Shown: piece after piece, positions 820-16,064 of the stretch | Numbering within the stretch: position 1 is the first letter of the stretch | How the letters are laid out: the number at the start of each line of letters is the position of its first letter | Origin: Ectocarpus siliculosus | Lineage: Eukaryota; Sar; Phaeophyceae; Ectocarpales; Ectocarpaceae | NCBI GenBank assembly: GCA_000310025.1 | Contig: FN648849.1 | Coordinates: 1-31,036 of the forward strand | Length of the DNA stretch: 31,036 bases | Direction: 5' to 3' | Notes under the pieces: generated by a model | Seen by the model: the letters and a program-made list of their open reading frames with translations, nothing else | What the model was told of the DNA's origin: nothing | The model's database searches: none | Translations under genes and position numbers: made by a program

Positions 820-1443
820 TTAATTTATATTTAATTTTATCCAACAAACTGGACACAATTCTATAACTCCACCTGAAGTTTCAGTTTTTAATACACTTTC
901 TTTAAACATTCCAATCTCAGAATGACCTCCTCTATTAGAAGTACCTATCAAATCTTTACCCCCAATTTGGTGCGTATATCGTACACATCTCGTACAAAGA
1001 ATACATCGTCGCAAAACTGTTTTTATTAGGCTACCCCAAAAGGTATCACCTAAAGAATTTTTAAAAAAAAGAAATCTCCCTCTATCAGACCCATAATTAA
1101 AACTTTGCTCTTGCAACTCACATTCCCCTCCTTGATCACATACAGGACAATCTAAAGGATGATGCAAAAGTAATAATTCCATAACGGACTCTTGAGCTTT
1201 ACGAACAAGGGCTGTGTTTGTAAAAATTCTTAGATTAGGTAAAAAGGGTAAAGCACACGAGGCTTGAGGCTTTGGTGATTTACTAACCTCAACAAGACAC
1301 ATACGACAGTTACCCGCAACAAAAAGTTTATCATGATAACAAAACCTAGGAACCTGCGCCCCCGCAGCCTGACAAGCTTGTATAACAGTGGAACCTTTTC
1401 TTACCCAAACAATAAGATCATTTATAGATATAGTAAGCAGAAT
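820..1443 (-). CDS. nad11: NADH dehydrogenase subunit 11, Fe-S domain only
   Basis: This is the N-terminal Fe-S region of the 75-kDa subunit (NuoG), which relays electrons in the complex I peripheral arm. Visible Fe-S ligands include Q-A-C-Q near the start, F-C-Y-H, G-N-C-R-M-C, H-H-P-L-D-C-P-V-C-D-Q-G-G-E-C and R-C-I-L-C-T-R-C-V-R. The reading frame stays open above the first ATG (1302) and the upstream codons encode the essential ferredoxin-like segment (I-V-W-V-R-K-G-S-T-V-I-Q-A-C). The true start must therefore be a non-ATG codon near 1443-1429; I chose ATT at 1443, giving 207 residues. The protein stops just after C-P-V-C, so the large molybdopterin-like domain is absent. In brown algae that domain is thought to be nuclear-encoded. 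Confidence 0.9.
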   Translation of the reverse strand: MLLTISINDLIVWVRKGSTVIQACQAAGAQVPRFCYHDKLFVAGNCRMCLVEVSKSPKPQASCALPFLPNLRIFTNTALVRKAQESVMELLLLHHPLDCPVCDQGGECELQEQSFNYGSDRGRFLFFKNSLGDTFWGSLIKTVLRRCILCTRCVRYTHQIGGKDLIGTSNRGGHSEIGMFKESVLKTETSGGVIELCPVCWIKLNIN

Positions 1444-4330: not shown

Positions 4331-4332
4331 CT

Positions 4333-4420
4333 TAGTTCCTTACGGGATTTGAACCCGTACCTTTGCCCTTAAAGGCAATATCATTCTAGGTATTAAACCA
4401 TACGTTAGACTAAAAGAACT
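4333..4420 (-). tRNA. Aberrant tRNA-like element (tRNA-Glu-like, UAA in loop)
   Basis: The minus strand folds an acceptor stem AGTTCTT/AGGAACT, a good T arm (ACGGG, TTCAAAT, CCCGT) and a TTGCC/GGCAA anticodon-like stem. That stem closes a loop of only six bases, TTTAAG. The D region carries about 15 extra bases forming a small GGT/ACC hairpin. The sequence resembles trnE at 11533-11604 in the D, anticodon-stem and T-arm segments. A normal class II tRNA-Leu(UAA) exists elsewhere (27972-28057). This is either a diverged tRNA of unknown identity or a tRNA-Glu-derived pseudogene kept as an RNA-processing punctuation mark between nad4 and nad5. Confidence 0.55.
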
Positions 4421-4436
4421 TTTTGCTAAAATTAAC

Positions 4437-5885
4437 CTACATCCATAAATTAGCCCAAACTAAATTTGAAACCGCAGCATGCATTGCAGAAAAAAAAACA
4501 TTTGGATAAATCCCCATAAAAAGAGTACCTATAACTAAAGGTAAAAATAATATAAACTCACGCAAACTTAAATCGAAGCCAACAAGCTTAACATTACCGT
4601 AAGCTATACGATTAAATAGCCATAAAGAATAACCCCCCCCTAAAATCATAGAAGTAGCAGCAAAAAAACAAGCAGTAGTATTTGCCTCAAAGGCTGAAAC
4701 TAATAAAAGAAATTCCCCGATAAAACTAGAAGTACCTGGTAAACCAAGATTAGCCATAGTAAAGAAAAGAAAAATAATTATAAAAATTGGCATAGTATGG
4801 GTCAAACCTCCGTAATATTTAACAACTCTACTATGCCAACGATCATAAAGTACCCCTATTATTAAGAAAAGAGCCGAAGACACAAAACCATGACTTAAAC
4901 TTTGTAATATAGCAGCTTCTACTCCAATCACTGTTCCTGTAAATAATCCAATCATTACTAAATTCATATGCGCAACTGATGTATATGCAATTAATCTTTT
5001 TAGATCCGTTTGACGTATAGCAGTAAGTGAAGTATAAACTACACCTAATAAACTTAGACTAAAAACAAAAGGCGTGAAATATACAGAAGCTTCAGGGAAA
5101 AGCCCTAAAGAAAAGCGTAAAAATCCATAAGAACCTAACTTTAAGAGTATCCCCGCCAAAATAACTGAACCAGCCGTAGGTGCCTCAACATGAGCCTCGG
5201 GCAACCAAATATGTACGGGTAACATAGGAACTTTAGCAGCGAATGAAGCAAAAAAAGCTAACCAAAGCCATTTTTGATCATAATTTGAAAAACTAACTGT
5301 CGCTAAAGATTCATAATTAGTGCTACCTGCAAAAAGATATATATATATTACACCAATTAACATAAATAATGATCCAAAAAGAGTATAAAGAAAAAACATG
5401 TAAGCTGCACGTATTTTTCTTTGACGTGAACCATAAATACCAATAACTAAAAACATTGGTATTAAAACGGCTTCAAAAAAGATATAAAAAAATAATAAAT
5501 CTAAATTAGTAAAGACTAAAAGTAATACTAACTCCATGCTTAAAAAACTAATTAAATAAGTTTTAATATCCCCTTTATCAAAAGACCATGAAGCTAGAAG
5601 ACATAAAGGGAAAATTAAAGTTGTAAGTATAACAAAAAAAAGAGAAATTCCATCAATACCTAAAACTAAATTGATATTTGCAACGGGTAACCACAACCAA
5701 TTAACAACGTATTGAAATTTAGGTGTAGATTGATCAAAACCTAGCCAGAGTAGAAGAGAAAATACAAATACTACTGAAGTTATAAAAAGAGCGTATTGCC
5801 TCATTAATAACTTTTTATCCGAAGGAATAGCAATTAAGCCAGCAATACCTAAAGAAAGAAATATAAAGAGAAGAGTTAAGAGCAT
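4437..5885 (-). CDS. nad4: NADH dehydrogenase subunit 4 (complex I)
   Basis: The 482-residue antiporter-like subunit (NuoM) pumps protons in the complex I membrane arm. Diagnostic blocks include [60 protein letters not shown] and [14 protein letters not shown]. The ATG start at 5885 overlaps the last 10 nt of cox2, and the 3' end lies 16 nt before the tRNA-like element. The length is standard. Confidence 0.98.
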
Positions 5886-8800
5886 AATCTTTTACCAACC
5901 CAAGTTAAGTATTCATCTTGACTAACCGCTTGAACTACGATGGGCATAAAACCGTGATTAACTCCGCAAAGTTCGCTACATTGGCCATAGAAAACACCTT
6001 CCCGCTTAACAAACATAAATACTTGATTTAAACGACCAGGACAAGCATCTACTTTAACGCCTAAGCTTGGTACAGCCCACGAATGAAGAACATCCGCAGA
6101 AGTAATAAGCATACGTATATGTGTATTAGTTGGGACAAATAAACGATTATCTACTTCGAGTAGACGGAAAACTTTACCTGCTTTACCCGTACCTAAAGCC
6201 TCTGGAATTACTAAATCTTCATCAGCTATAAGATATGAATCAAAATTAATACGCTGTATTTCTTCATCTTCTTCAGTATGAATATTAGATAAATCTTCTT
6301 TAATAGAATTTATCTCCTCTTTAATCTTTGCATTTTTTTCAATTTCTTCAACAACCATAGAGCTAAAAGATTTATCTAAAAGAGTTAATAAAGTATTCGC
6401 TTCAGTTTGATCAACAGTTTTTAATAAATCTGCAAAAGTCTGTAACATTTCTTTTTGTAATCCTTCTTGATTATAAGAAATTTCTCTATCTTGAGATTTA
6501 AATAAAATATCTTTTATTTCCGCACTAGATTTTGACCCTTTTTTATCATCAGGATTTCCAGCTTCACTATTACCTTCTATATTAGAGTTATCTATTCCAG
6601 AATTGTCATCTCTAAGGTGAGAAAACTGAACATTAAAAGGTTTAACTTCATTTGATAAAGGAATATCTAGAGTTTTAGATACTCGAGCAGAAAGCCATTT
6701 AATATTAGCTAATTCTGATTTAGCGAGCAATACTTCTTTGTAAGACCTTGATTGAAGAAGGCCAGGATTTAATTTAATATCTAGAGGTGATAATTCTAAT
6801 CTTGTTAGATTAAGTTGCTCTATACGACTTGCTAGACTTAATAAAGTATTTTTATGAAGCTCCCTTAAAGTTCCTAAATAAGGATTATCATAATCTTTAG
6901 ACAAATCAAGAGTCACTTTTTCAAGTATCACTTTTGACTTATTTAATATATCGTAAGCTTTAGCGTAATCATCTTCTGCACCATCTAATTGTTCTTTTGT
7001 ACTAACTAAGCAGCTTTGAGCATAGTCTTTAATTAACTTATTGGAATCTATATCATTTAAACTGTTCTCAAGAACTGAACCTAAATAACAAGTTTTACTA
7101 TTTATCATTGCGTCAGATAAACCTTTCTCCGCTCTATCTAGAATTAACTTAAAAGTTTTTGAATTGTTTAATTCAAAATCAGATAAAGCTTTAGTATAAA
7201 TTACTTTTGCGACACTTAACTTAATACCAGCGACATCTTTTTCGATGTTGCTTAAAGTCTCTAAATCAGAGTGATCTTGCTTTAATAAATTAATTAAAGC
7301 TTTACCCTTATTTAATTCAGATGCAAGCAAATCACCTCCGATTTGACTTAATTGATTTTCTGCAGCATAAAAAGATTTCTTAGCAAACTCTAATTGTGCA
7401 CTATCTGTTTTTAATTGAGCTTTTACAAAGGCTAAATCTTCATTATGAATTTCCCAAAGATAATTTGGGTAATACTCAGTAGGCTTTCCTTCAACTGGGG
7501 TTTGTTTTTCTAGTAAACCAGTATCCTCGAAAACTTTTTCAGTTTTTTCTAAATTAGTATTTACTATCTTAAGTCTATCTTCAGCTGCGGATAAATCTAA
7601 TTTAGTGCTGCGTACTTTTAAAACAGCTTTATCAAAGTCTTCTTTAAGATTTTCAAACTTTTTTTGAGCTAACTCTAAATTAGCTTGAAAATTTACCGGT
7701 TCCTCTTTTAATTTAGTACCTGTCAAATTTACTTGAGCATTCTTAAAAACATTTTCAGCACCTTCTAACCTAGCTTGAGTTCTATCCATGATACTTTTAG
7801 CTTTGTTAAAGGATGCTTGCGCCTTTTCTAATCTTAAATCAGCTCTATCTGAGATATCTTGAAAGGTTTTTAGTTCATCTTCTGAATTTGCTAAAATAAT
7901 TTTACCTCTCATAAATTCTTCTACTGCTGGTATAACTTCTCCCTCCATTGCCATAAACTGAGCCTTTGCATTATCTGCTATTGCATTAGATCTATTACGC
8001 TCTTCAAAACTAAGGTCTCTTTGCGCTTTCCCTAAAAGGTAATTAGCTCCATTTAACTTCTCACCTGCCTGTAAAAAAACAAGTCTTTCACCATCTGATA
8101 ATTTTTTAATGGCTAATCTTAAAAAGTCATTCCAAGAATAATAACCATTATTATTAATCCAAATACTTCTAATTAAAAGAGGATCAGCAATAGCTAATGA
8201 AGCGTCTGCTTGTAAATACTCTGCTGTCAACTTATTAACGTTCGCTGCCGCTAATTCAATTTTAGACCAGTGTGAATAAAGTTTAGCATTATTTAATTCA
8301 GACAAAGCATTATTAAATTCAAATCTAGCGAAATTTGAAGCTATAACTGCACTATCTAAAGCAAACTTGCTACTATAATTTTCTCTTTCCCATCTTGTCA
8401 ATCTTAACTGATGCTCAATTAACTGTGTATCAATTAATTTATCTTCAGATAACTCTGCGACGGGTATAGCTTTTTTAAATTTTCTTATGTCTTGTCTCAT
8501 ATTTTCTATAAGTTCAGAAAAAGGCGTATTATCACTCTCTGGATCTACGGCAGCATTAGTACAAATACGTTTAGAAACAAAAGCCTCTGAGGCTGCTATT
8601 CTTAAATTTACATCATCTTTTTCATATTTTTTTTCCGCTGAAACAAGCTCACACCACTCCCAATATGGGTTGGACTTATCAAAATCTATTAAATCTGAAA
8701 TAATTGAACCATCATCATTAGAATCATTGTCAGATCCTGGTTTTTTACCACTATCAGAACCTTGATTATCAGATAAGGCATCTAAGGATTTAATTAAATC

Positions 8801-9715
8801 CTTATTTGTTGTTCCTAATTCGACATTCTCAGTAATTCTTAAGGATTGCTTAAAAAGTTTTAAAATTTTAATTATTAATTCTTGTTGTTCCGGAATAAGC
8901 GAACCTTTTTCTAAAGTCTCCTTTGCTGATGCTAATATATTTACCATTTCATCAGAAGAATAACAAAATATACTAAGAGAATCTTTTCTAAACTCATTTT
9001 TTAAAAGAAGTGAATTAATAACCCTTAAACGTAAAGAAATCATTTCAATAACCTTGTCAGGAAGTTCATCTAAATTGTTGTTATCAAGATAGCTTAAAAG
9101 ATCTTTAACCAAAGTAACCTGAGTTTGCTTTTCTCCAGAACCCACCTCTATATGAGCAGATTCGATGATTCCTACCCAAAATTTTAAGATTTCTTGAATA
9201 TTTTCAATAGGGGGTAAATCATACTTACTTACTTCTGGAACCACATCAAAATCAGAACATTCATAAGACCAATACCATTGGTGACCTACTACTTTTATTG
9301 TAAGACTTGGATCAATAACTTCATCCATAGCATATAATAAATTGTACGAAGGTATACTTATAACCATTAAAATACCTGCAGGTATTATAGTCCAAACTAC
9401 TTCAAGTAATGTTGAATGTGTAAATCCTACAGGATTTGAATGAGCTGACTCATTAAATAAAGTTAAGGACTTGTACAATAGCCAACCAACAAGACAAGCT
9501 ATTAATATCATAAAAGCCATTAAAAAACCATTAAAAAAAATAATACCCTCCATTACAGGGGTTGCAGGGTCTTGAAAGCCTATTTGCCATGGATGTGAAG
9601 CATCCATATTTGCAATAATGCAAGCATGCCCTACAAAAAAGAAAATAATAAAGGATATCTTAGCAAAAAAAAGAAAAGGAATCATTTTAAAAATATTTTT
9701 AAGTGGAATATTCAT
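5876..9715 (-). CDS. cox2: Cytochrome c oxidase subunit 2 with giant in-frame insertion
   Basis: COX2 receives electrons from cytochrome c through its CuA centre. Residues 1-157 give the normal N-terminal part: a hydrophobic leader, two membrane spans and G-H-Q-W-Y-W-S-Y-E. Residues 1156-1279 give the normal CuA domain, with ligands H1211 (V-L-H-S-W), C1246, E1248, C1250, H1254 and M1257. Between them are about 1,000 extra residues, so the protein is 1,279 long instead of about 260. The insert is hydrophilic and looks mostly alpha-helical. It has Ala/Glu/Lys-rich stretches near 620-930 and Asp/Asn/Ser/Gly-rich linkers at about 317-338 and 1036-1064. The frame is open throughout. Large cox2 insertions are known from brown algae; their fate in the protein is unclear. 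Confidence 0.97.
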
Positions 9716-9760
9716 AATATATACTTAATTGGTAATTATTATATTACCCTAGAAAAAAAC

Positions 9761-10915
9761 CTATTTAGATAAAGCTCTAAAAGCTAAAGTCTTCTCTAAC
9801 CATCCAACGAATAACCCCCCAAAAACAAAAAAAGCAAAGTAGCCTATTGAAACAACAGCACCAATCACTTTAAAGTAATCATCCACTGGAGTAGTACCTG
9901 ACCAAGCAAGTAAACAAAAATCAGCAACAAAAAGCCAAAAAACTACTGCATAAATTGGACGAAAATTGGCACTACGTAATATTGAAGTATTTAACAAAGG
10001 ATATAAAAAAATAATAGCAATCGCACCACCCATAGTAAGAATACCCCCTACTTTATTAGGTATTACCCTAAGAATAGCGTAAAAAGGTAAAAAGTACCAT
10101 TCTGGTACAATATGTGCTGGTGTGCCATAAGGATCCGCTTCTAAATAATTATCTGGGTCTCCTAAGCTATTAGGAAAGTAAAAAATAACCACAGATAATA
10201 CAGATAGAAGAACAAAAAAAGCTACTAAATCTTTTACATACATATATGGGTAAAAATTAACGTTTGCTGTCTTTGTTTTTATCCCTAAAGGATTATTTGA
10301 ACCATCTTTGTGTAACAGACCTAAATGAACAAATACTAAACCTGCTATAATAAAAGGTAATAAATAATGTAAACTAAAAAAACGATTAAGAGTTGGGTTT
10401 CCTACAGTAAACCCCCCCCAAAGCCACATAACAACTTCTTTACCTATAAAAGGAAATATCGAGAATAAACTAGTAATAACAGTAGCACCCCAAAAACTCA
10501 TTTGACCCCAAGGCAGAACATAGCCTATAAAAGCAGTTGCCATCATTAAAACATAGATTAAAGCACCTGACCACCATAATTGTTGACGCGGTTCCATGTA
10601 TGAACCATAATAAAGACCTCTAAAAATATGAGCGTAAACAACAATGAAAAAAAAAGAAGCTCCATTGGCATGCATATAACGAATCAACCACCCACTTTTT
10701 ACATCACGCATAATATGCTCAACACTAGAAAAAGCATAATGAGTTTCGCCTGCATAATGCATCGCTAAAAAAGCCCCACTTAATATTTGAATAACAAGGC
10801 AAAAACCAGCCGATGATCCAAAACTCCAATTATAATTTAAATTCATAGCTGTAGGGTAATCAATAATATGAGAATCTACCCAACTAAGTATAGAGTTTAA
10901 ATTTAACCTTGACAT
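9761..10915 (-). CDS. cob: Cytochrome b (complex III)
   Basis: The 384-residue protein is the catalytic quinol-oxidising subunit of complex III. Haem-ligating histidines appear as pairs 14 apart: H82 and H96 (Y-M-H-A-N-G-A-S and Y-A-H-I-F-R-G), and about H183 and H197. The Qo-site motif P-E-W-Y near residue 271 and [13 protein letters not shown] are intact. The ATG at 10915 shares one base with the nad9 stop (TAATG), which implies coupled translation. A spacer of 45 nt separates its end from the cox2 start. Confidence 0.98.
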
Positions 10916-15708: not shown

Positions 15709-15845
15709 TAAATAAATTTTTAAAATAACACTAAAAGCTATAATAGAGTATTTTTACACGATTAGTTTCAAAAACACTTAAATTAATAAATTTTGTCTAA
15801 AAATAAAAAGATATAAGTCTAATAAAAAAAAATTTGTGCCTAAGT
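15709..15845. other. AT-rich spacer upstream of atp6
   Basis: This 137-nt stretch has no recognisable gene or tRNA on either strand. It is AT-rich with several A and T runs. It may hold the atp6 5' untranslated region. Confidence 0.4.
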
Positions 15846-16040
15846 TTAATTAAAACTTTTAAACCCGTGATAAATTTTTATTTGACGATTTTTTGTACTT
15901 AAATTATTTTTAAATATAACATTAATCGTTTTGTAAGATCCTATATGTATTTTTTTTATCTTAAACTCTTTATTAAATTCAATATATTGATATAAAACTT
16001 GAAGATCTTGATTTAAAAGCCTAATATTTTTGCGTATCAC
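15846..16040 (-). CDS. Small basic ORF, possibly ribosomal protein bL31m
   Basis: A 64-codon ORF, rich in Lys, Ile and Asn, lies between cox3 and atp6. It has no internal ATG near its start. The frame opens with GTG at 16040, or with ATA or other alternative codons close by, so the start is uncertain. The N-terminal residues R-K-N-I-R, the short length and a late segment L-S-T-K-N-R-Q loosely recall bL31 (K-N-I-H-P at the start, S-K-x-H-P late). rpl31 is a known brown-algal mitochondrial gene not otherwise found in this window. The match is too weak to assert; it could also be an unidentified conserved ORF or noncoding. Confidence 0.4.
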   Translation of the reverse strand: MIRKNIRLLNQDLQVLYQYIEFNKEFKIKKIHIGSYKTINVIFKNNLSTKNRQIKIYHGFKSFN

Positions 16041-16064
16041 ACTAAAAGATTCTATTTATAATTA

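Follow-up and report, generated by a model that had tools for sequence, protein, structure and literature searches.

Enlarged cox2 genes of brown algae are reportedly the subject of works by Oudot-Le Secq from 2001 and 2006. A large in-frame insert in cox2 is described from the Fucales, Desmarestiales, Laminariales and Ectocarpales in the accessible text of PMC5695614, where it is called highly conserved and a single ancestral insertion event in brown algae is argued for; the enlarged genes measure 3,129-3,921 bp, against 687-906 bp without the insert, and the structure and assembly of the oxidase with the insert are said to be still to be explored. The insert is restated in a review (PMC7194472, accessible part), and a literature search, in which subscription papers mostly fell outside, returned no expression, protein, RNA or structure data for any brown-algal insert.

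The same place in COX2 is altered in other lineages. Ciliate COX2 (Tetrahymena, Paramecium and Euplotes) has an in-frame insert at the brown-algal site, published as an independent event, and split COX2 breaks at this site as well (PMC5695614). In the accessible parts of the respective papers, the Euplotes insert is weakly constrained and has no known relatives (PMC2779199), the solved complex shows a Tim hexamer recruited by the Tetrahymena insertion (PMC10060162) and a clam with a cox2 insertion produces an enlarged protein (PMC9895450). Split COX2, encoded by separate genes or transcripts, is found in chlorophycean algae, apicomplexans, dinoflagellates and Campsomeris/Dielis wasps. In Campsomeris plumipes fossulana a continuous ORF bridges both cox2 halves, but the transcript is processed to give several mRNAs, cox2a and cox2b among them, and the blots speak for two chains (accessible text of PMC5374615); an open frame alone is therefore no proof of a single chain. 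Ciliates, chlorophytes and wasps have each enlarged or split this loop on their own, which makes it well suited to studying how large insertions in an essential enzyme are tolerated or used.

The window analysed here, a stretch of 31,036 nucleotides from Ectocarpus siliculosus (contig FN648849.1), is by its sequence brown-algal mitochondrial DNA, with a GC content of 0.331, 20 tRNAs (ARAGORN), part of the large-subunit rRNA and nad, cob, cox, atp, rps/rpl and tatC genes. Its cox2 is 3,840 bp long, inside the published brown-algal range, with no internal stop and one terminal stop, and is laid out as follows.

5876..9715, minus strand: cox2 open reading frame, insert included, 1279 amino acids in the standard code (ORF listing, Pfam and solved-chain matches)
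9248..9715, minus strand: N-terminal COX2 part, residues 1-156 (COX2_TM match, hydropathy, alignment ends)
6251..9247, minus strand: in-frame insert, residues 157-1155, 999 amino acids (frame position, alignment gap)
5876..6250, minus strand: C-terminal CuA-ligand part, residues 1156-1279 and the stop (Pfam match, ligand letters)
5876..5885, minus strand: cox2/nad4 overlap of 10 bases, ATGCTCTTAA (sequence)

Insert size and place, the cob-cox2-nad4 neighbourhood and the Fucophycidae overlap are all as in the published enlarged genes, and no difference from these was found in a comparison of such described features. According to the accessible text of PMC9202911, the overlap ATGCTCTTAA is highly conserved in Fucophycidae, whereas Dictyota dichotoma has no such overlap. 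The insert is an already known, published lineage trait of four brown-algal orders (PMC5695614), and the original prediction had rightly stated that large cox2 insertions are known in brown algae. Through it, a gene for a core respiratory subunit has grown to four to five times the normal length in major lineages of seaweeds.

The original prediction had described an in-frame insertion of about 1,000 residues at 6251-9244, following residue 156 and preceding residue 1156. A stop-free stretch of 999 residues was indeed found between two COX2 halves on the minus strand, the coordinates being correct to within one codon (F156 = 9250-9248, D157 = 9247-9245, R1155 = 6253-6251, I1156 = 6250-6248). 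The N-terminal part consists of a leader-like hydrophobic stretch, two membrane helices and the HQWYWSYE strand of the CuA domain; 19-residue hydrophobic windows start at residues 11, 58 and 103, and COX2_TM (PF02790) matches residues 41-126, so both N-terminal helices are intact, as had been claimed. The same is true of the six named CuA ligands, whose letters are present at H1211, C1246, E1248, C1250, H1254 and M1257. What did not hold was the placing of the insert between the membrane spans and the CuA domain. The COX2 profile (PF00116) was hit as two stretches, the better covering residues 1151-1264 (profile positions 17-120 of 120), and since the first profile positions precede the insert, the latter is placed inside the CuA domain, near profile position 16/17; judged from the sequence, it breaks up the domain past the first of the conserved strands.

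The solved chain 7jro_b aligns to residues 34-160 and 1152-1276 and to nothing in between, which marks residues of approximately 157-1155 as extra, and in the three alignments to solved COX2 chains that were shown the N-terminal match stops at residues 156-160. Elsewhere the two halves are matched by separate chains: residues 28-155 by 9f5x_2B and 1183-1276 by 9f5x_2C, and residues 104-153 by 9fq7_4P and 1182-1270 by 9fq7_4N. PDB chain 7w5z_C2 (604 aa), which we take to be Tetrahymena COX2, aligns only over residues 1184-1272 (phmmer). The loop that holds the insert presumably adjoins the face on which cytochrome c docks, and likewise the tryptophan through which electrons enter. In the wasp the COX2 split falls within the cytochrome c binding interface (PMC5374615). 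At the start of the N-terminal part, a 36-residue extension with a strongly hydrophobic stretch (9608-9715, minus strand) precedes MDASHPWQ and is possibly a cleaved leader.

The openness of the insert is far from what its composition would give. In 500 first-order Markov simulations the mean number of in-frame stops was 87.6 (minimum 67) and the longest open stretch was 119 codons, compared with no stop in the insert; in the remaining five frames 44-166 stops were counted. In synonymous codon usage the insert correlated at 0.86 with the membrane-protein genes of the window and likewise with its ribosomal-protein genes (0.95 between these two sets), while the shifted frames gave 0.36-0.50 (the two on the same strand) and 0.19-0.77 (antisense). 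The sole ORF of at least 60 amino acids on the other strand of the insert encodes 92 amino acids and has no Pfam match; the insert of Campsomeris plumipes fossulana, by contrast, holds five other-strand ORFs (PMC5374615).

The insert alone would weigh 112.8 kDa, with a pI of 4.91, a net charge of -41 and a GRAVY of -0.47, and has no membrane-like stretch (top 19-residue hydropathy 0.94, compared with 2.2-2.7 in the N-terminal part). No family scored above its cut-off in Pfam or NCBIfam searches; the NCBIfam matches xseB (E 0.1) and CzcB (E 0.35) and the weak Pfam matches (E 1.7 and above) were dismissed as helix look-alikes. No PDB chain matched the insert at E up to 10. Using tblastn, whole COX2 matched nothing in phages and 441 plasmid records, all with less than 80% query coverage; the best 20 of these cover 14-20%, each in two joined pieces, as expected of coxB, and the insert alone had no plasmid match. 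A pattern scan gave no IMG/VR match for whole COX2, and of the stretches it returned for the insert (18 in GTDB genomes and 5 in IMG/VR) none was confirmed by tblastn. No relative of the insert was thus found in the viral, genome, phage and plasmid collections, among which there was no algal genome collection. Internal protein repeats did not exceed those of 60 block-shuffled controls, the best self-repeat score being 38 over 30 residues (control mean 36.7, maximum 47) and 47 over 50 residues, at residues 618/676 (control mean 36.1, maximum 49). DNA repeats within cox2 are few and short, and no target-site duplication was seen, the longest word common to both junctions having 8 bases against a chance mean of 7.3 and a maximum of 12 in 300 shuffles.

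Structure prediction, which had been proposed as a check on the insert, succeeded in part. For the whole insert the model was of low quality (mean pLDDT 38, pTM 0.29) and contained helices but no strand, whereas the 225-residue segment 596-820, modelled alone from one sequence, reached a mean pLDDT of 67.7 and a pTM of 0.46, with long helices at 597-666, 673-732 and 758-819. The ten-residue blocks of this segment had a pLDDT of 78-94 in residues 616-665 and of 79-93 in residues 676-725; values elsewhere were lower, including the first 20 residues (43-59) and the turn (57). The feature predicted from the segment model and a heptad test is:

7523..7918, minus strand: predicted antiparallel coiled-coil hairpin in the insert, residues of approximately 600-731

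The heptad registers of the first two helices were matched by 1 and 0 of 500 shuffles, and that of the third (758-818) by 47 of 500, for helix segments that were picked after the model was seen. Across the insert a strong register was found in six of 69 overlapping windows, where about 0.7 would be expected, five of them in 619-730 and one at 899-940; with so few, most of the insert has no clear coiled coil. Helical periodicity of hydropathy was above that of shuffles (z of at least 1.9) in four of eight insert segments and not in the other four. A Foldseek search with the 225-residue segment returned generic coiled coils with no match at E <=0.001, identities being 11-20% among the best 50 of 1147 matches. 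Antiparallel packing of the first two helices is suggested by this search, in which hairpins could be superposed on the segment, among them the colicin receptor-binding domain 2ysu_B (rmsd 2.4 A over 122 columns). The Smc arm 5xg2 and the colicin receptor-binding domains 2ysu and 1ujw resemble the predicted hairpin in general shape; this likeness is generic, at low identity, and is no evidence of descent. One long antiparallel coiled-coil hairpin in an acidic, soluble chain is therefore fairly well supported as a prediction, and offers a concrete, testable structure for the insert. The all-helical insert models and the predicted hairpin are new here; the hairpin was not found in the accessible text of PMC5695614, whose own structure prediction of the full protein misplaced the CuA centre.

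Retention, excision and function as two chains remain real alternatives for the fate of the insert. The reading towards which we lean is that the insert stays part of one COX2 polypeptide of approximately 144 kDa and forms a helical arm in the intermembrane space, in the way that the insertion of ciliate COX2 is retained. The uninterrupted frame, the host-like codon usage and the report in four orders together make translation as one chain the best explanation, and retention is favoured by the Tim hexamer recruited by the Tetrahymena loop insertion and by the enlarged protein made in the clam. The cox2 frame would be translated as a single precursor of about 144 kDa, its two helices would enter the inner membrane and the remainder would be exported to the intermembrane space, probably by the Oxa1/Oxa2 (Cox18) route; Oxa1 and Oxa2 homologues are present in Ectocarpus (PMC3097184, accessible part). 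The insert would loop out of the CuA domain past its first strand, so that the ends of the loop could stay close and the domain could still close. What is retained would be an acidic arm, for the most part helical, that includes one or more long coiled-coil hairpins. By analogy with the Tetrahymena insertion, the most likely role of the insert would be to act as a scaffold for binding, on the side of complex IV that faces the intermembrane space. A more tentative and rather doubtful proposal is that the retained acidic coiled-coil arm, emerging from the CuA loop next to the face where cytochrome c docks, is a scaffold of brown-algal complex IV dedicated to docking or to supercomplexes; it would mean that brown algae and ciliates independently made the same COX2 loop an intermembrane-space platform.

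Mobile elements occur in organelle cox genes, and the 3-kb segment might be an intein, or a spliced group I or group II intron to which an ORF is fused, although this is barely credible here. Pfam listed no domain of the reverse transcriptase, LAGLIDADG, HNH or intein kind, the insert lacks an end of the intein type (HN[CST]) and it shares its codon usage with the host genes. The only Rfam match in 5800-9800 is a sub-threshold SmY on the plus strand, and the 21 gathering-score RNA matches in the window include no intron family; on the sequence, an intron as the origin of the segment is very unlikely. Separate mRNAs made by RNA processing, or internal initiation, would leave the insert as an independent product joined to COX2 only in the DNA frame, for which the processed Campsomeris transcript is a precedent and in-frame Met codons at residues 1090 and 1120, ahead of the CuA part, could serve. 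We think this improbable: with no stop in 999 codons the first half could end only by RNA processing, the accessible text of PMC5374615 treats ORF continuity separately for a second Campsomeris species, and for brown algae an in-frame insert is described from all four orders (PMC5695614).

Cleavage is a stronger competitor, though still unlikely in our estimate. The whole precursor would be translated, an intermembrane-space protease would excise the insert and COX2 would work as two chains, one with the helices and HQWYWSYE and the other with the CuA ligands, as in chlorophyceans and several alveolates. The insert lies at the natural COX2 split site (PMC5695614, PMC5374615), as the original prediction had noted for chlorophytes and alveolates, and the halves are matched by separate PDB chains (9f5x_2B/9f5x_2C and 9fq7_4P/9fq7_4N), but the split genes or transcripts of those lineages differ from the one open frame here, which is known at the DNA level. 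Two Imp1 homologues and one Imp2 homologue occur in Ectocarpus (PMC3097184), yet no cleavage site was recognised, and an excised insert of 113 kDa would need a function of its own to stay open across four orders. The four Cys residues of the CuA part (1225, 1246, 1250 and 1278) fit the Cys enrichment reported for split or enlarged COX2 (PMC5374615), which does not discriminate between cleavage and retention because enlarged COX2 has it as well.

Constraint on cox2 was assessed from a Sargassum table (accessible part of PMC5243773). Over 73 coding sites, with a stop-to-stop change scored as synonymous and with one orf39 site (missense), one orf129 site (stop) and non-coding sites omitted, whole cox2 had 8 nonsynonymous and 7 synonymous sites, compared with 19 and 39 in the other named genes (Fisher P = 0.23). 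No stop arose among the 15 cox2 changes, which is weak evidence, as the probability of this without selection is 0.46. One published Ka/Ks of 1.029 for cox2 (PMC11354929, accessible part) speaks for weak constraint.

On the minus strand the genes surrounding cox2 run trnY, cox3, atp6, trnR, nad2, cox1, trnI, nad9, cob, cox2, nad4, nad5, nad6, nad11, nad3 and rps14, the same order from trnY to rps14 that the accessible part of the Dictyota coriacea mitochondrial table gives; unlike in that table, trnE adjoins trnI here, its trnN and trnD were not found there, and atp8 was not located. ARAGORN reads trnK-trnA-trnD-trnV on the minus strand. The published Ectocarpales order is trnK-trnD-trnA-trnV (PMC11354929), so that trnK and trnV flank trnA and trnD in both, but with the two inner genes swapped. 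Among the orders treated in that paper the window is closest to Ectocarpales, and by its sequence it probably belongs there or to a near relative. The nad5-nad4 spacer (4331-4436, minus strand) holds a tRNA-like sequence at 4400-4342, which scored 22.9 bits against an Rfam gathering score of 29 and was not called by ARAGORN; order-specific tRNA genes occur between nad4 and nad5 (PMC11354929). The cox3-atp6 spacer (15709-16064, minus strand) has 356 bases and only a 64-codon GTG frame with no Pfam match; orf379, which some Fucales have in this spacer (PMC5695614), is absent. A short nad11 (820-1302, minus strand, 160 aa) shows only iron-sulphur/ferredoxin-like parts in Pfam, and the molybdopterin-binding part of nad11 has diverged strongly in brown algae and is encoded in the nucleus in Ectocarpus (PMC3423374). 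Finally, the atp9 (ATP-synthase C) frame with a GTG start (28526-28191, minus strand) overlaps trnV (28548-28477), and the true atp9 start is probably further downstream than the listed GTG.
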